Positions 1 through 9,552 of a stretch of DNA of 35,349 nucleotides are shown here, in pieces. Under the pieces are notes generated by a model. It did no database searches, was not told the origin of the DNA, and saw nothing but the letters and a program-made list of their open reading frames with translations. The stretch is from Clostridiales bacterium (GTDB lineage Bacteria > Bacillota > Clostridia > Oscillospirales > Oscillospiraceae). The stretch covers positions 1 to 35,349 of the forward strand of contig JAAYOP010000047.1 of the NCBI GenBank assembly GCA_012520295.1, in the 5' to 3' direction. Positions within the stretch are counted from its first letter, which is position 1, and each line of letters begins with the position of its first letter. The position numbers and the translations under genes were made by a program.

Positions 1-149
1 CAACAGCCTAACATGCCATGTACTCATCGTCAACAGCTTTCGCGGCATAAACGCTTAGGCTATTGTCTCATTAGCTACCGTTTGATGACCGAGGTAATTT
101 ACACACTAATTTGGACTTGACTTTTATTATATAGGCTATATAGGCTTTC
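1..149. other. Leader region with no recognisable gene
   Basis: No gene is recognised here. One forward frame stays open from the window edge to a TGA at 118-120, but its 39 codons resemble no family I know. Short repeats are visible: CAACAGC occurs at 1-7 and 32-38, and AGCCTAA near 5-11 is mirrored by TTAGGCT near 55-61. TATAGGC occurs twice in tandem around 130-145. These could be a degraded gene end or a regulatory leader of the glycosyltransferase cluster; nothing decides between the two. Confidence 0.3.
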
Positions 150-158
150 TGTTATAAT
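150..158 (+). promoter_or_regulatory. Candidate extended -10 promoter of the GT2 cluster
   Basis: The sequence TGTTATAAT is a perfect extended -10 element (TG, one base, TATAAT at 153-158). No convincing -35 hexamer sits 16-18 bases upstream, where the tandem TATAGGC units lie, which fits an extended -10 promoter. A TTGACT at 117-122 lies too far upstream for this -10. Transcription would begin near 165 and leave a leader of about 115 bases before the first gene. This is the only good promoter-like sequence seen before the seven same-strand genes. Confidence 0.45.
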
Positions 159-279
159 TCTAAGCATACATATAATCAAAACATAATAGCTCCGTTTCTT
201 TGAACTCAAAGACTATAATAGCTTGTAATCAGGAGCTTATCCCGATTGCATGGAACAATTCAAACTAGGAGAAGCTACA

Positions 280-1464
280 ATGGATCCCAAAATATCAGTT
301 ATCATTCCAGTTTACAATACGGAACCATGGCTCCGCAAATGTTTAGACAGCGTAATTAATCAAACGCTAAAGGAAATTGAAATCATATGTATCGATGACG
401 GTTCTACCGATAAGAGCGGTATGATATTGGATGAATATGCGGCCAAAGACAGCCGCTTTCATGTCATACATAAAAGCAACGGCGGACTTGTTAACACAAG
501 AAAAACCGGACTTAGCGCGGCTCAAGCAGCATTTATATGTTTTATCGACAGCGATGACTGGGTTGATCAGAATATGCTGGAAAACATGTATAAGGCTGCT
601 ATAAAAACAGATGCCGATATAACTATAAATAGGGGTTTTTTTTTAGAAAATAAGAATTATTCATATTTATTAAAATCCGCCATTCCCGCGGGTACATACC
701 GTGACAATGATTTAATCGAAAAAGTTTATAGAAAAATGATGCGGATTGAAAACGGCTCAACCGGCATCATCGGTTCGTTATGCGTCAAGCTTTTCAGACG
801 TAGTTTATTGGAACGGCAAATAAATGCGGTTGACGACAGGATAAAAATCAGCGAAGATGAGGTATGTACCTTTCTATGCATTGCCCATGCAAAAACAGTG
901 ACAATTATCGATGAAGCATACTACCATTATCGTAAAAGCCACGATACCTCAATGACATACAAAATCCATGAAGATTATTTTATAAATCTAAATCTGGTCT
1001 ATCATACGCTTAAAAACGGGTTTTTATCGGCTGACAATCATGAATTACTTTTAAACGAGCTTAAGCATTTTATAAATCGCGCAGTTTACACCAGTACGAA
1101 ATATTTATTTGGTACTTATGGACATCGTTGCAGCTATGGCTACTTGTTTCCTTTTCAGGCAATAAATAAAGGATGCCGTTTGTTACTTTACGGAGCGGGA
1201 ATAGTTGGTATTTCATATTATAGACAGCTTATTACAACATATTTCTGCTCAAAAATAATATGGGTCGATCGCAATTGGGAGGCTATTTCGGCTCACGGAT
1301 TGCCGGTAGAGAATCCTGAGGAAATAACAAAAGATATGTTTGACGTAGCGGTGATTGCAATATTGGAGAAAAACACCGCTCAAAGCATCCGAACGTATTT
1401 ACTGGAGAAAAATATACCTGATGAGAATATTATTTGGCACAACCCTGTCATTGAATCAATTTGA
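280..1464 (+). CDS. GT2 glycosyltransferase with C-terminal GAG Rossmann-like domain
   Basis: This 394-residue protein is an inverting family 2 glycosyltransferase. The GT-A domain begins with KISVIIPVYN (residues 4-13), followed by IDDGSTD (38-44) for nucleotide binding and FIDSDD (88-93) as the metal-binding DxD equivalent. The C-terminal part holds a separate small nucleotide-binding-like domain with LLLYGAGIVG (301-310) and WVDRN (328-332). The start at 280 is preferred because AGGAGA at 267-272 lies 7 bases upstream; the in-frame ATG at 250 has no such site. It is the first of three paralogous GT2 genes and probably adds a sugar to a surface glycan or glycoprotein. Donor and acceptor cannot be told. 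It lacks the NETPGA-YQD segment shared by the two following paralogues. Confidence 0.88.
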   Translation: MDPKISVIIPVYNTEPWLRKCLDSVINQTLKEIEIICIDDGSTDKSGMILDEYAAKDSRFHVIHKSNGGLVNTRKTGLSAAQAAFICFIDSDDWVDQNMLENMYKAAIKTDADITINRGFFLENKNYSYLLKSAIPAGTYRDNDLIEKVYRKMMRIENGSTGIIGSLCVKLFRRSLLERQINAVDDRIKISEDEVCTFLCIAHAKTVTIIDEAYYHYRKSHDTSMTYKIHEDYFINLNLVYHTLKNGFLSADNHELLLNELKHFINRAVYTSTKYLFGTYGHRCSYGYLFPFQAINKGCRLLLYGAGIVGISYYRQLITTYFCSKIIWVDRNWEAISAHGLPVENPEEITKDMFDVAVIAILEKNTAQSIRTYLLEKNIPDENIIWHNPVIESI

Positions 1465-1500
1465 CGCTTTATTTTTAAATAGTCATAATGAGGTGATTAA

Positions 1501-2829
1501 TTGGCTCCCAAAGTATCCATAATTATACCTTCTTTAAATACAGCGCCATACATACCGCAATGCCTGGAAAGCGCGGTTGCCCAAACGCTTAGTGAAATAG
1601 AAATAATATGTGTCGACGCCGGTTCTACGGACGGTACGTTTGAAATACTTGAAGATTTTGCAAAAAAGGATAACCGAATTAAATTATTGCATTCAAAAAG
1701 AAAAAGCTACGGCTATCAGGTCAACATGGGACTGAAAACGGCAAAAGGGAATTATATCGCCATATTAGAGGCGGACGATTTTGTCGACACCGACATGTAC
1801 GAGCAGCTTTTTCAAATAGCAGAAGAGAATAATGCGGATTTTGTCCGGTCCTATTATTATGACCATATAGAAAAAAAAGATTATTTGCACAATTATATGG
1901 AAAATATTAAAGTAAATACTTTGCTTTCCGGAAATGAAATATGGGATATGACGAAATTGAAATGCATTTGGGCAGCAATTTATAGAAGAGATTTCTTGAT
2001 ATCCGATGAGATTTATTTCAACGAAACCCCGGGAGCCTCATATCAGGATTCGGCATTTGCGTTTAAGGTAGCTATTTGTGCAAAGCGCGCGTATTTGTCA
2101 GATAAAGCTTTCTATCACTACCGGAACGACAACCCCAACTCGTCGGTTCATTCAAAAGAAAAGGTATACTGCGTATGCGATGAAGTAAAAGAAGCTCAGA
2201 ATTTTGTTGAAAAACGCTTTCCCGGGCAAAAAGGAATATATGAGCTGCTCGCTTCTTTCCGGTTTCAAACTTATTTATGGAATTACCGGCGTTTACCTCT
2301 TGAACACAGGCGAGATTTTCTCGAAATAATGAATTATGAACTGCTCAATGACTGGAATTCCGGTTATTTAAATAAAAATAGTTTTAAGCCGCACTACTGG
2401 AGTATTCTTGTCGATATCATATTCAAAAAAGAGCAGTTCTTTTGGAAAACCACAATACCTGAGACCGGCATATTAAATATAAAGCTTTACGGCAGAGCGA
2501 TAACTGATGAGTTGTCAAAGTATGACAACATAATCATCTACGGCGCCGGTACATACGGTAAACATTTACTGGCATTTCTCCGTAGCCTGGGAACGAATGA
2601 TGAGAAAATAGCGTTCGCCGTTTCCGCAGATTACGAGAGCATGATAGATAACATACCCTGCCACTGTATTAGGAATTGGGTCCATTTATCGGACAGCTCT
2701 CTTGTTATTATCGCCGTCGAAGGCCTAGCACAGCAGGAAATGTTTGAAACCGCATATGAACTTGGATTCAAAAATATATTGATTCTTGATGATATCTTTA
2801 AAACGTTAATAAAAGCAGTTAACACATAG
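1501..2829 (+). CDS. GT2 glycosyltransferase with C-terminal GAG Rossmann-like domain
   Basis: This 442-residue family 2 glycosyltransferase starts with TTG, supported by AGGTGA at 1491-1496. The GT-A domain shows KVSIIIPSLN (4-13), VDAGSTDGT (38-46) and LEADDFVD (89-96); the last is the metal-site region, with Glu in the first acidic position. A mid-protein block, NETPGASYQD (174-183), and FYHYRNDN (204-211) are shared with the next gene. The C-terminal GAG domain begins at IIIYGAGTYG (344-353), but its second strand lacks the usual VD, so the fold may be kept with altered ligand binding. It lies 36 bases after the previous gene in the same orientation and is probably co-transcribed. The sugar specificity is unknown. 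Confidence 0.88.
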   Translation: MAPKVSIIIPSLNTAPYIPQCLESAVAQTLSEIEIICVDAGSTDGTFEILEDFAKKDNRIKLLHSKRKSYGYQVNMGLKTAKGNYIAILEADDFVDTDMYEQLFQIAEENNADFVRSYYYDHIEKKDYLHNYMENIKVNTLLSGNEIWDMTKLKCIWAAIYRRDFLISDEIYFNETPGASYQDSAFAFKVAICAKRAYLSDKAFYHYRNDNPNSSVHSKEKVYCVCDEVKEAQNFVEKRFPGQKGIYELLASFRFQTYLWNYRRLPLEHRRDFLEIMNYELLNDWNSGYLNKNSFKPHYWSILVDIIFKKEQFFWKTTIPETGILNIKLYGRAITDELSKYDNIIIYGAGTYGKHLLAFLRSLGTNDEKIAFAVSADYESMIDNIPCHCIRNWVHLSDSSLVIIAVEGLAQQEMFETAYELGFKNILILDDIFKTLIKAVNT

Positions 2830-2857
2830 AAAAAGAGAGAAAGCTGGTTTTTATAAT

Positions 2858-4222
2858 ATGCCTAAAGTATCTATTATTATGCCGTCCCTCAATGTCGCCC
2901 AATATATAAGAGAGTGCATGGACAGCGTAGTAAACCAGACCTTGCAGGACATAGAGATCTTATGCGTGGATGCAGGCTCAACAGACGGTACTCTTGAAAT
3001 CCTACAAGAATATGCCTCAAAAGACAGTCGCATCCGGATAATACGCTCCAAACGTAGAAGCTATGGCTTCCAGGTAAATCTGGGCATTGACAGCGCAAAG
3101 GGCGAATACTTAGGTGTTGTCGAAACCGACGACTATATCGATCCCGCTATGTTTCAAAAACTGTACGACACCGCGATTGAAAACAAAGCCGACTTTGTTA
3201 AATCCAGTTACTACTTATTTGCCGATATCCCCCAAGTCGGCCGGCTTAAATTGGAACAAAATATATCCGGTCTGCCATACATGGGCAGAGACCGGAAGTG
3301 TATTTCGTCCGAAGACTACATAAATCAGACAACCGCACTTGATCCCTATATATGGAATGGCATTTATAAACGGGATTTCGTGCAGACAAATAGTATTCGC
3401 TTAAATGAGACTCCGGGCGCGGCGTATCAAGATGCGGGATTTCGTTTTCAAATGGCCTTTCTTGCTCAAAGAGGAATAATAATCCCCGAAGCGTTTTATC
3501 ACTACAGAAGGGATAACGCTGGTTCATCAATGTACAGTCCCAAGGGGCTTCAATATGACTTGCAGGAATGCCAGTATATTTATAACTGGATGGCAGGTCG
3601 CTTCTCGGGGGACGAGGCGCGCATGCGAGCTATCAGTTGCCATATCGCTTCTATTTTTTTAGAGACTGTCCAAGAATCCGCTTTATTTGCCAATCCGGAT
3701 AGGCAAACGCTTGTTGAAAAATTTTATAAATTGCTGAGAATTTGCTATGACAGCGGGTATCTGGTGCAGGAGGATTTTCCAAAGGAAAACTGGTTGGAGC
3801 TTAAAATGTTTCTTGATAACCCGGTTCAGTTTGATTCTTATATAAAACTCAAAGCTGAAACCGAGTTCAAGCTTTATTATGACTTTTTATCTTTAATGCG
3901 TTCAAAGAAAGAGATAATCATATACGGCTGCGGTACGGTCGGTACCAGAGTATGTTTTTTACTTCATAGGAATGATATTTCCAATATAGTTTATTTTTGC
4001 GACAGCGACAGCAATAAATGGGGCAGCAAATGTATGGGCAAAAAAATACTGTCCCCTCAGGAAGCTATTCTTTCCTATCCAAACGCCTTTTTTCTGGTTG
4101 CAAATCGGGGTAGTTATATGGAAATCATGCGCGTTCTGATTAATCTAAACGTTCCGCGTGATAATATGGGCATATATCGCTTGTCTTCGGATCCTTTAGT
4201 TTGTACAAGCAGGTTTATATAA
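2858..4222 (+). CDS. GT2 glycosyltransferase with C-terminal GAG Rossmann-like domain
   Basis: This 454-residue protein is the closest paralogue of the preceding gene. It shares KVSIIMPSLN (3-12), VDAGSTDGT (37-45), VETDDYID (88-95), NETPGAAYQD (183-192) and FYHYRRDN (213-220). The C-terminal Rossmann-like domain begins IIIYGCGTVG (353-362) and has FCDSDSNKWG, a typical acidic end of the second strand. The ATG at 2858 is preceded by a purine-rich AGAGAGAAAG stretch. The gene order suggests stepwise elongation of one oligosaccharide by related enzymes, arisen by tandem duplication and divergence; this is inference. Linkage and donor cannot be assigned. Confidence 0.88.
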   Translation: MPKVSIIMPSLNVAQYIRECMDSVVNQTLQDIEILCVDAGSTDGTLEILQEYASKDSRIRIIRSKRRSYGFQVNLGIDSAKGEYLGVVETDDYIDPAMFQKLYDTAIENKADFVKSSYYLFADIPQVGRLKLEQNISGLPYMGRDRKCISSEDYINQTTALDPYIWNGIYKRDFVQTNSIRLNETPGAAYQDAGFRFQMAFLAQRGIIIPEAFYHYRRDNAGSSMYSPKGLQYDLQECQYIYNWMAGRFSGDEARMRAISCHIASIFLETVQESALFANPDRQTLVEKFYKLLRICYDSGYLVQEDFPKENWLELKMFLDNPVQFDSYIKLKAETEFKLYYDFLSLMRSKKEIIIYGCGTVGTRVCFLLHRNDISNIVYFCDSDSNKWGSKCMGKKILSPQEAILSYPNAFFLVANRGSYMEIMRVLINLNVPRDNMGIYRLSSDPLVCTSRFI

Positions 4223-4248
4223 CAACCGGTTTAAGGATGTGAGACAAA

Positions 4249-5892
4249 GTGACAAATAGTTCCGAGCGTCCGGCAAAATCCGCATGTAAACTGGATGCCG
4301 ATATAGGACAGTATATATTATCAAATACCGACGGCGATTTCAGCGCTATAGTAAAAAAGGATTATCGCTGGCAAGTCCTTTATCATCTGGATGTCCAGTC
4401 AACAGGACTGTTATGCTGGTACCCTTTCAGAAAGAACTCCTCTTTGCTCCAGATTGGCGGCGGTTTCGGAAATTTGACCGGGATGCTTTGCGACAAATGC
4501 GAATTTGTAACTGTCCTGGAGCATGACGACTACCGTGCATATTGTATAAGAAGACGCTGGAATACGAAAACAAACCTTCGTGTTGTCAGCGGATATATCT
4601 CAGCTTTTTCATCTCCCGAGAAATATGATTATATTGTGGTCAATATAGTTCCAGGCTCTCCAGAACCTGTATTTAGCCCACAAGGCTATGTCTCTTTGCT
4701 CTTGCAGGCAAAGAAAATGCTGGCCGATCACGGAAAACTGCTGTTTGCAGTTTCCAACAAGCTGGGAATTCAGTATTTATGCGGAACTCCCGACCCTTCA
4801 ACCGGGATACCCTTCGACGGTCCCAATGCTTATACCACCGGAGCGTCGCTGCCTTCTCTAAGCAAGGCCGAGCTGTCGGAGGTACTGAGAAGCACCGAAT
4901 TTCCGACTGTCAAGTTTTTTTATCCTTTCCCTGACCATTATCTTCCGCAGATGATTTACACAGACGATTACCCACCGGGCGAAGAACTTATTGAAAGACT
5001 GCGAATATATCTGACGGAGCACGACAGCCTTGTAATTGACCCTGTAAAACTATATCGATATTTAGCAGATGAAAACCTTTTGTTGAGTTTCTCCAATTCA
5101 TTTTTAGTTGAATGCTGCGACGGGGAGCCGTGTCCCGTATTATACGTATCCGTTTCAACCGAAAGAAAAAGAGAAGAAAGCTTTTCAACCATAATCCTCA
5201 ATAACAGAACAGTTGAAAAGCATCCTCTTTATCCGGAAGGGCTAAAGGGTTTGGAGCGAATCGTCAAAAATCTAAGCGACTTAAAAGCCCGAGACATACC
5301 GGTGATTTCGTGCAGGCTTGATAATGAGAGGCTTATAATGCCCCACATTCAGGCTCCCACGCTTTCAAAGCATCTAAGAGATTTGGCAGCTCATGACAAG
5401 TCCGGTTTTGTCCGGTGTCTGGACAAGCTCTATCACTTTATTCTAAAATCTTCGGAACATGTGCCAGCGGATAAAAACGCTCTTGCCGGCTCCGCTCCAA
5501 TTTCCCACTGGGGGCCTATTCTTGCCAGGGCATATCCGGAAATGATACCGGTGAACTGTTTTTATGATCACGAAGAATTGGTGTTTTTTGACCAAGAGTT
5601 TGTAAAAGAAAACTATCCTGCAAAATACGTCATGTTCAGGGCGATCAATGATGTTTACATGTTTTTTCCGCAATTGGAAGAACACGTGCCTCTATCGAAG
5701 ATAAAAAAGCGGTATGGTCTGACGTCCGAATTGTGGCGGGCTTTCGCGCAGGAGGAAGACCGCTTTCAAGACCAGCTCAGACAGCGTGAAACATATCAGC
5801 ACTTTTATAAATGGAAACCGTCTGATATTAAAGAGAAACGAATAAAAATAGCAAGAAACGGCAGGTTGTTGCTGGATGGGTACAAAGCATAA
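4249..5892 (+). CDS. SAM-dependent methyltransferase fused to a kinase-like domain
   Basis: This 547-residue protein has a class I methyltransferase fold at the N-terminus. Motif I is LLQIGGGFGNLTG (66-78), an acidic residue (E91) ends the second strand, and YDYIVVNIVP (126-135) resembles motif IV. The region from about 310 reads like a kinase or aminoglycoside-phosphotransferase fold. A Lys in TVEKHPLYPEG (K324) could be the nucleotide-binding lysine, PEMIPVN (430-436) resembles a catalytic loop with Glu where Asp is usual, and VFFDQEF (445-451) resembles the metal-binding Asp strand. Methyltransferase-kinase fusions such as WbdD cap and terminate O-polysaccharide chains; that parallel is inference. 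The start is GTG with AAGGAT 10 bases upstream. The 3' end overlaps the next gene by 17 bases, suggesting translational coupling. Confidence 0.7.
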   Translation: MTNSSERPAKSACKLDADIGQYILSNTDGDFSAIVKKDYRWQVLYHLDVQSTGLLCWYPFRKNSSLLQIGGGFGNLTGMLCDKCEFVTVLEHDDYRAYCIRRRWNTKTNLRVVSGYISAFSSPEKYDYIVVNIVPGSPEPVFSPQGYVSLLLQAKKMLADHGKLLFAVSNKLGIQYLCGTPDPSTGIPFDGPNAYTTGASLPSLSKAELSEVLRSTEFPTVKFFYPFPDHYLPQMIYTDDYPPGEELIERLRIYLTEHDSLVIDPVKLYRYLADENLLLSFSNSFLVECCDGEPCPVLYVSVSTERKREESFSTIILNNRTVEKHPLYPEGLKGLERIVKNLSDLKARDIPVISCRLDNERLIMPHIQAPTLSKHLRDLAAHDKSGFVRCLDKLYHFILKSSEHVPADKNALAGSAPISHWGPILARAYPEMIPVNCFYDHEELVFFDQEFVKENYPAKYVMFRAINDVYMFFPQLEEHVPLSKIKKRYGLTSELWRAFAQEEDRFQDQLRQRETYQHFYKWKPSDIKEKRIKIARNGRLLLDGYKA

Positions 5893-6670
5893 TCATACGG
5901 ATAGAATTTTTGCGGCTGTGGAAGGCTCGGAAGGAAAAAAGATCGTGCTTTTCGGAGCGGGAAAGATGATGGAACACTATCTTAAAAAATACGGCACAGA
6001 CTATCCTCCTGTTTTTGTAGTGGACAATGACAAGAGTAAATGGAATACTGAAAAATTGGGATTTGCCATAAAAAACCCCCGGGAGATTTGCGATCTTGAT
6101 CCTTCTCCATACAGAGTTGTCATTTGTTGCAACGCATATGATGAGATTGCAAATCAGCTAAGGGAGATGGGTATAAAGGATTTCCGTATATATTTGCGCC
6201 ATATAGACGAACTTCTCGAAACCGTGGAACCAGTCCCCTATAAAAGCGAAAAATATAACATAGGCTATGTAACCGGTGTATTTGATATGTTCCATATCGG
6301 ACATTTAAACATCCTTCGAAAGAGCAAAGAAAGATGCGAATATCTGATAGCGGGTGTTCTGACAGATGAGCTGGCCGAACACGATAAAGGCCGGAGACCG
6401 TTTATCCCGTTTGATGAGAGACTGGAAATCGTCCGGCAGATAAAATATGTGGATCGGGTAATCCCGGTTGATTTTAATAATACAAACAAACTGGAAGCCT
6501 GGAAGCTGCTTCGATATGACTGTCATTTTTCCGGCTCCGACCACGAAGAAGACTGGTATTGGTTAAAGAAGCAACTTCAGACCTTGGGCTCCAATATGGA
6601 GTTTTTCCCATATACTGAAACTACCAGCTCGACGATGCTCAGACAAATGATACAAAAGGCCCTTATTTAG
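5876..6670 (+). CDS. GAG domain fused to HxGH cytidylyltransferase (TagD-like)
   Basis: This 264-residue protein has two parts. Residues 20-110 form the Rossmann-like GAG domain (KIVLFGAGKM at 22-31, VFVVDNDKSKW at 46-56). Residues 127-264 are a nucleotidylyltransferase of the glycerol-3-phosphate cytidylyltransferase type: GVFDMFHIGH (134-143) contains the HxGH signature, RPFIPFDER (174-182) follows, and SSTMLR (251-256) matches the ISST-type motif. Members transfer CMP from CTP to a phosphorylated alcohol, giving CDP-glycerol, CDP-ethanolamine or similar. The exact acceptor is not readable. The neighbours (GT2 enzymes, TIM-barrel isomerases) suggest a CDP-activated polyol or sugar for a glycan. 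No classical CDP-glycerol glycerophosphotransferase is visible in the window. The start overlaps the previous gene. Confidence 0.78.
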   Translation: MGTKHNHTDRIFAAVEGSEGKKIVLFGAGKMMEHYLKKYGTDYPPVFVVDNDKSKWNTEKLGFAIKNPREICDLDPSPYRVVICCNAYDEIANQLREMGIKDFRIYLRHIDELLETVEPVPYKSEKYNIGYVTGVFDMFHIGHLNILRKSKERCEYLIAGVLTDELAEHDKGRRPFIPFDERLEIVRQIKYVDRVIPVDFNNTNKLEAWKLLRYDCHFSGSDHEEDWYWLKKQLQTLGSNMEFFPYTETTSSTMLRQMIQKALI

Positions 6671-6684
6671 ACGGAGGAGAATCT

Positions 6685-7914
6685 ATGAATATCGGCATCC
6701 AGTTGATTGATGACCACTATCTGGCTTATCCTGACAACAATCTTAAAATGATATCCGATGCCGGTTTTGACAGCATCGGTTTTGATCTAAGAGCTTTTTG
6801 TCTGTCTCTTGATTCCATGGATATTCCCGACAGCAACAAGGTCGCCTGCGATTTATACGTAGACATAAAAATGATTGAAAAGAAATTTTCCTCATATAAA
6901 AGCGCAGCAGATAGAAACAATTTAAAAATCTCCCAAGTGATTGCCCCATCTGCTTCTCAGGTTGCCGACAGAAAAACACTTGGCCGTATAATCGTCAATT
7001 GCATTGCTTTGTGCGGACGGATGGGCAGCCCGTATCTAATTGTTCATCCGTTTCCGGCAGGCAGCTTAAACAGCCGTCAGGAATGGCGGGAGAACAGCGA
7101 CTTTTTACTCTCCCTTGTACCAGCCGCCAGGGAGCACCAGGTAATAATCTGCCTGGAAAACCAGTATAGAGACTGTAACGGTCGCTATCTGCGCAGTGTT
7201 TGTTCGGATCCTGATACGGCGGCTTATTATGTGGACAGGCTTAATAACGAGGCGGGTGAAGAGCTGTTCGGCTTTTGTCTGAATACTGGCAACTGTATTT
7301 TATTCGGCCAGAGTTTATATGAAACTATAATAAAGCTGGGAAATCGAATCCGCACGGTCAGAATTCAGGATAACAACGGCATCTGGAAACAGCGGCTTAT
7401 GCCTTATGCCTGCACTAGAAATACACTGGGCTCAAGCACTGATTGGCCCGGGTTTGTTCGCGGAATACGTCAAATCGATTTTCAAGGCACTCTGTGCTTT
7501 GTTGCGGACGGAAGCGTAATTAGTTTTCCCAGCAATATGCGCCATGCTGTTCTGAGGTTTGTTGCAGAGATAGGCCGTTCTATGGCTGAGCAAATAGATA
7601 TTGAGCGAAATTTAAGCAAATGTAGAAATATAATATTATTTGGCGCAGGCAATATGTTTGAAAACTACATGTCCAGCTACGGAGACAAATATCCTCCTCT
7701 ATTCATAGTGGACAACAACAGCACGCTCTGGGGCACATCAAAGCTTGGAATATCCATCAAACCTCCGGATGCGATCAAGGAACTAGGCGGGAATTACGGA
7801 GTTTTTATTTGCAATCGGTTCTATTATGAAATTGAAAAGCAACTGACAGATATGGGAGTCACGCATATTTATCGGTTTAACGATGAATATAGGCCGCTGA
7901 ATTCTCCTAAATAA
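6685..7914 (+). CDS. Degenerate xylose-isomerase-like TIM barrel with C-terminal GAG domain
   Basis: This 409-residue protein consists of a sugar-phosphate isomerase/epimerase-type TIM barrel (about 1-305) followed by a GAG domain (about 313-400: NIILFGAGNM at 315-324, FIVDNNSTLWG at 340-350). The GAG domain is very close to that of the preceding cytidylyltransferase, sharing KYPP/DYPP and the following VDN. Aligned by eye with the next gene, the barrel keeps the first metal ligand (E158 in CLEN). The others are changed: Asp to Asn200, His to Asn203, His to Arg226 and Glu to Val273. It is therefore probably not a metal-dependent isomerase and may bind a ligand or act as a partner subunit. GGAGGAGA at 6673-6680 supports the start. 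Confidence 0.75.
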   Translation: MNIGIQLIDDHYLAYPDNNLKMISDAGFDSIGFDLRAFCLSLDSMDIPDSNKVACDLYVDIKMIEKKFSSYKSAADRNNLKISQVIAPSASQVADRKTLGRIIVNCIALCGRMGSPYLIVHPFPAGSLNSRQEWRENSDFLLSLVPAAREHQVIICLENQYRDCNGRYLRSVCSDPDTAAYYVDRLNNEAGEELFGFCLNTGNCILFGQSLYETIIKLGNRIRTVRIQDNNGIWKQRLMPYACTRNTLGSSTDWPGFVRGIRQIDFQGTLCFVADGSVISFPSNMRHAVLRFVAEIGRSMAEQIDIERNLSKCRNIILFGAGNMFENYMSSYGDKYPPLFIVDNNSTLWGTSKLGISIKPPDAIKELGGNYGVFICNRFYYEIEKQLTDMGVTHIYRFNDEYRPLNSPK

Positions 7915-7942
7915 ACCAACAAAATAGGACGTGGGAAGCCAT

Positions 7943-8881
7943 ATGAATCAAATTGGCGTGCAGACAAAGAACATTGTTGAAGACAATGCTCCTTTGGATG
8001 GATTTAAATTAATTAGGCAGGCGGGATTTGACTGCGTAGATTTCAGTCTGGACCAGTATCTGCCCAGCAAAGAGCTGTATAAAATGAAAAAAAACGCCTT
8101 CTTTGATCAATCCGTCAGCGAGCTGGAGCGTTTTTTTTCTACTCATAAAGTGTCCGCAACGGAAACGGGAATTACTATAAGTCAAATGCACATGCCCTAC
8201 CCCCTTTTTGTTTGGAAGGGCGGTGATCTAAATGAATATTTAAAAAAAATAGTCGCCCCCAAAAGCCTGGCTGTCTGCGCTTTTTTTAAATGTCCTTATA
8301 TTGTTGTTCATGGGTTCAAGCTGATGCCATATCTGGGTTCCGATGAAAAAGAATGGGAGCATACGGCACACTTTCTTAACTCCATTGCCCCAATCGCCAA
8401 AGAAATGGGAGTAACCGTTTGCCTTGAGAATATTTACAACAGCAAAAACGGGCGTATAACGGAGGGACCTTGTTCCGATGCGCTGAGAACCGCAGAACGT
8501 ATTGACCGGCTGAATGACAGGATTGGTAGCGAGGTATTTGGATTTTGTTTCGATATCGGTCACGCAAATCTTTTAGGAATCGATTTTGAAGCCTTTCTCT
8601 GCCAAATGGGAAGCAGAGTAAAGGTTTTGCATATCCACGATAACGACGCTATTTCCGATCTGCACCAATTGCCGTTCACCTTCACAAGGACAAGAGAAAA
8701 TCCTTCAGCTACGGATTGGAACGGATTCATACGAGGCTTGAAAAAGATTAAATTTCAAGGCGCCTTGTGCTTTGAAACTTCACCCGTTGTCCAGGCATTT
8801 CCTAAGCCTTTATGGTCTGACGCACTCAGCCTTATAGCAAAAATCGGCGGCTATTTTGCAAAAGAGCTGTCAAACGGATAA
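7943..8881 (+). CDS. Sugar phosphate isomerase/epimerase (xylose isomerase-like TIM barrel)
   Basis: This 312-residue protein is a single TIM barrel of the AP-endonuclease-2/xylose-isomerase-like superfamily, which interconverts keto sugars or related polyols. All expected metal ligands are present: E162 in VCLEN, D204 and H207 in FDIGHAN, H230 in LHIHDND, and E278 in CFETS. The start at 7943 (MNQIGVQ) aligns with that of the upstream paralogue (MNIGIQL). The GTG at 7931 would lie only one base after an AGGA, so it is less likely. It is the last gene of the cluster and probably makes or modifies the precursor used by the cytidylyltransferase; this is inferred from position. The substrate is unknown. 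Confidence 0.8.
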   Translation: MNQIGVQTKNIVEDNAPLDGFKLIRQAGFDCVDFSLDQYLPSKELYKMKKNAFFDQSVSELERFFSTHKVSATETGITISQMHMPYPLFVWKGGDLNEYLKKIVAPKSLAVCAFFKCPYIVVHGFKLMPYLGSDEKEWEHTAHFLNSIAPIAKEMGVTVCLENIYNSKNGRITEGPCSDALRTAERIDRLNDRIGSEVFGFCFDIGHANLLGIDFEAFLCQMGSRVKVLHIHDNDAISDLHQLPFTFTRTRENPSATDWNGFIRGLKKIKFQGALCFETSPVVQAFPKPLWSDALSLIAKIGGYFAKELSNG

Positions 8882-8926
8882 TACGCTGGTGTTTTAGCTA
8901 ACAAACTTAAAAAAGTAAAAAAACAC

Positions 8927-8955
8927 AAGACATATTTCTCTGCGCATGATAGAAT
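8927..8955 (+). promoter_or_regulatory. Candidate promoter of the cupin gene
   Basis: AAGACA (8927-8932) and TAGAAT (8950-8955) are separated by 17 bases. A TG one base upstream of the -10 makes it an extended element (TGATAGAAT). Transcription would start near 8962, leaving a leader of about 48 bases. No terminator hairpin was seen between the upstream gene and this promoter. Confidence 0.5.
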
Positions 8956-9009
8956 AGAGCTATATAACAAGCCCAACTTTATAACTCCAATCATGAAAGG
9001 AATGTTGAC

Positions 9010-9552
9010 ATGAGCAAGAGGAAATACGAAAAGCTGGTCTATCAGTTCAAGCCGGAATACAATGAAGCTGCGGCTGAGGGGGTCGGCACGGATTTTGTCT
9101 ATTCTCCCCAGGCTTACTTCAGGGGAGCGTCCCAGATACCCGGCTCCAAGTATAATGTGGGTTTCCAGATTTTTGTCAAGCCCTTCTTTCTGGACAGGAT
9201 CCCCCACCGGCACGCAGTGGACGAATATTTGATTTTCCTGGGAGGCACCTTCCCAAATCTATTTGATTTTGATGCAGAAATCTCACTGTGCATCGGCGAG
9301 GAGATGGAGGAGTACATAATAACCCAGCCCACCATCGTTCGCATACCTGCCGGAGTGCAGCACTGCCCGCTGAATTTCAAGCGTATTGACAAGCCCGTAT
9401 TCTTCCAGGCTGCCTGCATGCAGGGCATGTTCGGCGGTATATACGGGGATGGAATAGAAATGTACTACAATGGACCTGGCCAATGCGTATATGACGCCGA
9501 AAAGAAATGCGACGCATGCAAAAAGTGCCTGGACGACGATTGGGACAAATAG
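9010..9552 (+). CDS. Cupin-domain protein with Cys-rich tail
   Basis: This 180-residue protein is a single-domain cupin. Motif 1 reads IPHRHAVDEYLIFLGG (64-79), giving H66, H68 and E72 as metal ligands. Motif 2 reads RIPAGVQHCPLNF (111-123), giving H118 as the fourth ligand. The C-terminal tail KCDACKKCL (166-174) has three cysteines in a C-x2-C-x2-C arrangement, which is not part of the cupin core and could bind a metal or react with thiols. Cupins include oxygenases, isomerases and ligand-binding proteins, so no reaction can be given. The gene has its own promoter and a strong terminator and looks monocistronic. AAAGGAATG lies upstream of the ATG. Confidence 0.75.
   Translation: MSKRKYEKLVYQFKPEYNEAAAEGVGTDFVYSPQAYFRGASQIPGSKYNVGFQIFVKPFFLDRIPHRHAVDEYLIFLGGTFPNLFDFDAEISLCIGEEMEEYIITQPTIVRIPAGVQHCPLNFKRIDKPVFFQAACMQGMFGGIYGDGIEMYYNGPGQCVYDAEKKCDACKKCLDDDWDK

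Follow-up and report, generated by a model that had tools for sequence, protein, structure and literature searches.

A degenerate xylose-isomerase-like barrel fused to a GAG domain is co-inherited with its canonical neighbour

Introduction

Two neighbouring genes of a Clostridiales bacterium encode related TIM barrels, of which the downstream copy (B) has a complete metal site and the upstream copy (A) has lost most of it. They lie in contig JAAYOP010000047.1, whose positions 1 to 35,349 are referred to as the window. The question raised by this locus is why a barrel that has lost several ligands at once, and is joined to a C-terminal GAG domain, is retained in an open frame beside an intact copy. 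We have compared the pair with related loci from other genomes, with emphasis on the site residues, the linkage of the two genes, the selection acting on them and the genes that surround them.

Results and discussion

The gene pair and its metal site

The features of the window are summarized in Table 1. Gene B adjoins gene A and encodes 316 amino acids from GTG 7931 or 312 from ATG 7943; the ATG is the likelier start, and the GTG would add four residues. By BLASTP the two proteins are identical at 103 of 316 alignment positions (33%, E 2e-53), and both pass the 31.1-bit cut-off of PF01261 (AP_endonuc_2), A with 61.9 bits (E 1e-16) and B with 85.1 bits. The AlphaFold2 model of A has a confident predicted fold (pLDDT 90.1, pTM 0.88). 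For both models the closest solved folds are of the UlaE / D-tagatose 3-epimerase kind, with 3cqi as the top match in each case (Z 26.4, rmsd 2.8 over 265 residues for A; Z 26.8, rmsd 2.7 over 271 residues for B). Solved structures searched with the sequence of A by itself yielded nothing up to E 1, while the class profile of A did match. Fold and family are common to A, B and the PF01261 barrels IolI, UlaE, D-tagatose/D-psicose 3-epimerase and MJ1311. Assignment of B to a named enzyme family was rejected, since no NCBIfam cut-off was reached: B scores 16.8 bits against the D-psicose 3-epimerase model NF051856 (cut-off 300) and 31.2 bits against the CbiR phosphodiesterase model NF041277 (cut-off 105). 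The NCBIfam scan of A gave no match.

In isomerases of the IolI/D-tagatose 3-epimerase type we take the metal ligands to be Glu-Asp-His-Glu, accompanied by the histidine of a DxGH motif. This set is complete in B and absent as a full set from A, which keeps one of the five residues and adds the GAG domain. All five residues of B are invariant in the 46 canonical barrels of our alignment A4, where their numbers are 4 higher. The sequence-only reading had placed them at E162, D204, H207, H230 and E278, numbers that are exact when ATG 7943 is the start, and had described A as keeping only E158, with Asn, Asn, Arg and Val elsewhere; by alignment these are N200, N203, R226 and V273. The second histidine of the HIH motif of B is also gone in A (Q228), and the TDW motif is retained. 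That the frame is intact and the flanking sequence alignable, as the same reading held, proved correct: both ORFs are open and the copies align along the entire barrel. Chance or a slip of the alignment was rejected as a source of the differences on the basis of this whole-barrel alignment and of the same pattern in relatives.

Table 1. Features of the A/B locus and of the genes upstream of it in the window
Feature	Position	Strand	Basis or remark
Two GT2 glycosyltransferases	250..2829	+	PF00535 E 2.9e-38 and 1.8e-31
GT2 glycosyltransferase with weak C-terminal GAG-like domain	2858..4222	+	PF00535 E 2e-30; GAG 17.9 bits
First half of fusion: methyltransferase-like N-terminal domain and unassigned middle	4249..5892	+	Pfam matches below cut-off; alignment
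Second half of fusion: GAG (5933-6196) and cytidylyltransferase-like (6269-6646)	5876..6670	+	CTP_transf_like E 5.6e-18; GAG 106.5 bits; alignment
Gene A ORF (barrel and GAG)	6685-7914	+	open, 409 aa
A, degenerate xylose-isomerase-like TIM barrel, about residues 1-306	6685..7602	+	PF01261, AlphaFold2 model, fold match
A, E158, the only one of five site residues kept	7156..7158	+	alignment with E162 of B
A, N200 and N203, in place of D204 and H207 of B	7282..7293	+	alignment
A, R226, in place of H230 of B	7360..7362	+	alignment
A, V273, in place of E278 of B	7501..7503	+	alignment
A, C-terminal GAG domain, residues 310-403, Rossmann-like	7612..7893	+	GAG HMM 140.5 bits (window copy among the HMM-building sequences)
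Gene B, canonical TIM barrel	7943..8881	+	PF01261 E 8.2e-24; model pLDDT 95.6
B, site stretch	8426..8776	+	E162 (8426), D204 (8552), H207 (8561), H230 (8630), E278 (8774)

Site loss recurs with the GAG fusion

A profile search of genome contigs with the A+B alignment gave 38 loci. Among the 119 barrel proteins first gathered, 11 are extended at the C-terminus by a tail of some 100 residues (99-121) and the site is damaged in all 11; the remaining barrels, two fragments aside, keep all five residues. Follow-up searches with an alignment of the 11 tailed proteins covered 391 genomes of the class, 397 of family f52 (which we take to be Lachnospiraceae) and 398 of the phylum. At the thresholds used they gave 7, 22 and 4 matching genomes, respectively, with genomes recurring between searches; three of the seven class-level matches were barrel-only. 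Each of the 26 full-type places in genomes other than that of the window was then covered by a longer stretch, and one profile was used for each domain. The pair loci contain 37 barrel+GAG proteins, namely that of the window, 10 from named contigs (one from Peptococcaceae, the others from Lachnospiraceae or Eubacteriales) and 26 others (24 from f52 and 2 from f135).

Recurrent site loss is tied to the GAG fusion. The full E-D-H-H-E set is missing in 36 of the 37 barrel+GAG proteins, L141 alone keeping it, and is present in every one of the 80 scoreable barrels among the 82 that have no GAG domain (L091 and L136 are cut off). Fisher's test of GAG fusion against site loss gives p 2e-29, a figure that overstates independence because the GAG label needs only two changes on the tree. 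The barrel+GAG query alignment favours GAG-bearing proteins; single-protein searches, which could have revealed dead barrels lacking GAG, gave none among the loci taken from them (up to 30 per search).

Site loss as a general trait of tandem barrels was considered and rejected, as GAG-less barrels in tandem or in clusters, for example those of L037, L075, L076, L077, L078, L082, L083, L087 and L088, keep the site. Three successive canonical tandem barrels without GAG are found in L087 (3636-6473), L088 (1093-3885) and L090 (113-2786), the last having two of them in one ORF.

Two classes of fused barrel

A quick tree was made of 117 barrels with the site columns removed; L148 and L091 were left out as too short. 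The GAG-fused barrels form a clade of 28, here called class I, that includes the window and its nearest relative L054 (support 95), and a class II clade of 7 (support 99), with L141 apart. The 35 degenerate rows are all separated from the rest by a branch with support 81, and a single origin of the degenerate barrels is therefore possible on the evidence of this tree. L148 was assigned to class I by its residues, which brings that class to 29.

The parental metal/acid-base site appears to be lost in class I, and the residue patterns and the tree support this well. H230 is lost in 29 of 29 members (substitutes I, R, V, L, W and Y) and H207 in 28 of 29 (V, N, T, I, A and S), one member keeping its His. 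Asp persists at D204 in 23 of 29 and Glu at E162 in 14 of 29; position 278 has Glu in two and Asp in 18. Of the positions conserved to 97% or more in B, 46 are different in A or fall there below 50%, among them H83, H123, H207, H230, H232, H241 and E278. Class I also has invariants of its own, R170, R259 and R262, with N137 at 96%, and P16, N159, G202 and P240 persist, as W254 nearly does. The suggestion that the substituted residues are catalytic in a known subfamily finds no support in the class I substitutes, which are heterogeneous.

Class II keeps E162 and H230 in all seven members and has Asp (5) or Asn (2) at position 278. It is therefore not to be called dead, and its barrels may still bind metal, judging by these residues. 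L141 (7959-9161, minus strand) has a long tree branch and places a GAG-fused barrel with a complete metal site beside a canonical barrel; it could be an intermediate or else have arisen by a fusion of its own. In the product of L148 (7863-8738), of 291 aa, the second barrel half and GAG are present and the N-terminal half is missing, so that the whole barrel may not be needed.

A is co-inherited with B

A is co-inherited with B, in strict pairing with a canonical copy. A second barrel follows A on the same strand in each of the 37 loci, and this partner is canonical in 36, that of L136 being cut off by the contig end. The two genes lie within 100 bases of each other or overlap in 33 of the 37; in six the overlap is 1 or 4 bases. 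The largest distances between them are 1355, 1732 and 2365 bases. The reverse test started from B and covered 329 genomes of the same family drawn regardless of A, many of them shared with the f52 search. It gave 13 partner matches with E < 1e-150, and A adjoins all 12 that could be assessed; in the thirteenth (L162) the sequence stops some 110 bases upstream of its barrel gene, apparently at a contig edge. The L141-type locus L165 (E 3e-119) also has its GAG-barrel, and the weaker matches L166, L167 and L168 (E 5e-104 to 1e-78) have none within the stretch covered.

The trees of A and B run in parallel, with the partners of class I in one clade of 29 and those of class II in one clade of 7. 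Distance matrices of A and B correlate with r 0.88 over 34 loci (L141, L136 and L148 left out), a value inflated by shared ancestry. With L141 included, the co-occurrence spans 24 numbered genera. A is thus a paralogue without the catalytic residues that is retained with an intact copy over many genomes, which is one mark of an enzyme-pseudoenzyme pair. In the A+B profile search there were also many solo or clustered barrels without a GAG-barrel neighbour.

A is under purifying selection

Nei-Gojobori counts were made for three close pairs of loci. The dN/dS of the A barrel is 0.33 for L055/L056 (few changes), 0.17 for L128/L129 and 0.075 for L140/L151; the corresponding values for B are 0.07, 0.145 and 0.045. 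Between the window and L054, where the synonymous sites of A are saturated, the A barrel has a dN of 0.24 and B one of 0.20. Purifying selection acts on A, which nevertheless evolves faster than B, with a mean pairwise distance of 0.68 versus 0.43, and therefore part of its change may be relaxed constraint. GAG is more conserved than the barrel to which it is joined, with dN of 0.14 versus 0.41 in L149/L150 (identity 83% versus 53%) and 0.19 versus 0.32 in L136/L139.

The frame of A is open over 360-678 aa in 36 of 37 loci, the exception being L148. A pseudogene was therefore rejected for most loci; disruption of the gene in related genomes, which would have told against a selected role, is seen only as the loss of the N-terminal half of the barrel in L148. 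From the sequence of the window, selection for a non-catalytic role linked to GAG had been proposed, perhaps as a regulatory or scaffold subunit. The dN/dS values, all below 0.35 in the three pairs close enough to be measured, agree with the selection part of this proposal, as do the joint inheritance of A and B and the link of site loss to the GAG fusion; a regulatory or scaffold part for A is one candidate, and a new metal-independent activity may be another.

The A-B pairs of L055 and L056, which come from two contigs of a single metagenome-assembled genome, are nearly identical: GAG is the same in both, B almost unchanged and the A barrel 95% identical.

The GAG domain and the surrounding genes

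GAG spans about 95 residues. In 15 aligned rows it has a glycine motif (GxG), either FGAG or FGSG, and an invariant Asp. Its profile matches the solved structures 3nkl (E 1e-5) and Rex (E 2.6e-4) weakly. In Pfam, 2 of 15 members match PglD_N (best E 0.0017) and 2 of 15 CoA_binding, in both cases weakly and below the cut-offs, and the window copy has no Pfam match. It shares with Rossmann domains of the Rex, PglD_N and 3nkl types this weak profile similarity and the glycine motif, and is likely to be a nucleotide-binding Rossmann fold.

Upstream of A, a fusion protein with a methyltransferase-like domain, an unassigned middle, GAG and a cytidylyltransferase is present in all 27 class I loci that could be assessed; L055 and L056 were left out of this count, as their sequence begins at the A gene. 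Its motif region for the cytidylyltransferase is nearly invariant in a 19-row alignment, and the Pfam scan of the fusion covered members of five loci and the two window ORFs. In the window the fusion is split into two ORFs that overlap by 17 bases in different frames, the second half having been aligned with L054, L057, L128 and L149. It is a single protein in relatives, including L054 (796 aa), and the split is either a gene fission or an assembly or sequencing frameshift. The methyltransferase-like domain has the glycine-rich motif GGGFG only in the window and L054, and 25 of 27 covering rows are without it (28 rows, with relatives from L054, L057 and L126-L151; L146 does not cover the motif), hinting at a second dead domain.

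The eight class II and L141 loci do not have this fusion. Seven of the eight have a protein of a cytidylyltransferase-Gfo/Idh/MocA type (cluster 6; one member scanned) and seven one of a Gfo/Idh/MocA-GDPD type (cluster 5; two scanned). Genes of the LicD type (cluster 3; one scanned) are many in these loci and occur in 10 of 37 loci across both classes; three flagellin-type genes (cluster 11; one scanned) are found in class II and L141 loci. Nine of the 37 loci have proteins of the CDP-glycerol glycerophosphotransferase type (cluster 4; one scanned), five with a weak GAG match. Further fusions are a degenerate barrel+GAG joined to a GT8 glycosyltransferase (L072, 4855-6891) and a canonical barrel joined to a Gfo/Idh/MocA-GDPD protein (L071, 5950-8676).

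The cytidylyltransferase, LicD and CDP-glycerol neighbours point to decoration of a surface polymer with a CDP-activated alcohol or sugar phosphate. The same three families recall the surface decoration with CDP-glycerol or phosphocholine by TagD, LicD and Glyphos_transf proteins; we know of no pathway of that kind that uses a barrel pair. The A/B loci, some of them beside flagellin-type and LicD-type genes, point to a surface decoration that is CDP-linked and uncharacterised.

Possible roles of A

The explanation that we prefer, with a probability of roughly one half, is that A is a conserved pseudo-isomerase that partners B and, through GAG, tethers it to an assembly line for a CDP-alcohol or glycopolymer. 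B, to judge from its intact site and predicted fold, would do the chemistry, and A would contribute heterodimerisation and tethering. In favour of this explanation stand the loss of the site with the GAG fusion, the pairing of A with B and their parallel trees, the dN/dS values, the invariants of class I, the confident predicted fold of A, the cytidylyltransferase fusion upstream and the GT8 fusion of L072. Enzymes of the D-tagatose 3-epimerase type are dimers formed through barrel surfaces, and A and B would pair in the same manner. GAG of A would dock or position the pair beside the cytidylyltransferase fusion and those glycosyltransferases that carry a related GAG; a sugar or polyol phosphate from B would then be activated with CTP and transferred onto a surface glycopolymer. 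The docking idea is weakest for the glycosyltransferases, since only 10 of the 31 GT2 proteins in these loci have a GAG match, which scores 16-35 bits. Other genes, for example a glycosyltransferase, lie between the fusion, A and B in several loci, which also counts against this explanation, as do the faster evolution of A, the half barrel of L148, the partial site of class II, the Asp and Glu residues that part of class I retains and the full site of the GAG-fused L141. More tentatively, the dead barrel with its GAG might be the assembly platform of a surface-glycopolymer complex, an obligatory heterodimer with the live isomerase in which GAG-GAG contacts couple isomer production to CDP activation and glycosyl transfer. 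If so, two enzyme folds of one pathway, the barrel and the methyltransferase-like domain, would have turned into scaffolds.

Other roles must be weighed against this pseudo-isomerase partnership. The class-specific invariants R170, R259, R262 and N137, together with the Asp mostly kept at D204, would fit if A were an enzyme with a step of its own beside B, a new metal-independent reaction or an altered substrate, for which a Rossmann-like GAG with its GxG and invariant Asp could bring a nucleotide cofactor. The residues at the old site vary widely among relatives, however, unlike those of a new active site at the same place, and we consider such an enzyme unlikely. We think it quite unlikely that A is a ligand-binding sensor whose dead barrel or GAG, on binding a nucleotide or a product of the pathway, would turn B or the glycosyltransferases on or off. 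The match of the GAG profile to the redox-sensing repressor Rex, alongside 3nkl, fits a sensor, and dead paralogues that regulate active ones are known, as in the AdoMetDC prozyme of trypanosomes (PMC5201418); the presence of GAG in the cytidylyltransferase fusion and some transferases fits docking equally well.

Finally, A could be decaying, a duplicate kept by its operon position only, or one in which GAG alone matters. The faster evolution of A relative to B, the higher conservation of GAG than of the barrel (83% versus 53% identity in L149/L150) and the missing half barrel of L148 all lean that way. Frames of at least 360 aa in 36 of 37 loci, barrel dN/dS of 0.075-0.33, residues invariant within the class, a confident predicted fold and co-occurrence with B over 24 numbered genera lean the other way, and make decay very unlikely.

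Comparison with other enzyme-pseudoenzyme pairs

The best-known dead-enzyme partners are those of eukaryotic signalling and of parasite polyamine synthesis, and bacterial cases are also present among the literature matches listed. Deoxyhypusine synthase is reportedly another pair of an active enzyme and a dead paralogue. In trypanosomes active AdoMetDC persists with a prozyme paralogue that lacks catalytic residues (PMC5201418).

The likeness of both systems to A/B is that an active enzyme stands with a paralogue lacking catalytic residues; A/B differs in being bacterial, of another fold and extended by a Rossmann-like domain. A published description of such a barrel pair was not found among the matches listed, as judged by titles and the beginnings of abstracts, which does not imply absence from print. 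A/B offers a bacterial enzyme-pseudoenzyme case from a barrel family that is very common, and 24 numbered genera can be compared. It gives a tractable system for the proposed passage from isomerase to scaffold, with L141 as a possible intermediate, a class II whose site is partly degraded and a gene order that hardly varies.

Origin of the cluster in the window

The cluster (1-9000) has 41% GC versus 48% for 9700-35349. Among 394 genomes of the window's order, its own included, no match at E <=1e-15 from another genome extends past query residue 319, that is, into GAG. From the low GC of the cluster and this lack of a GAG-reaching match within the order, it is a fair inference that the window genome gained the cluster horizontally. 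Just after the cluster, an ORF of 180 aa (9010-9552) matches nothing in Pfam or NCBIfam up to E 0.1 and looks cupin-like by eye.
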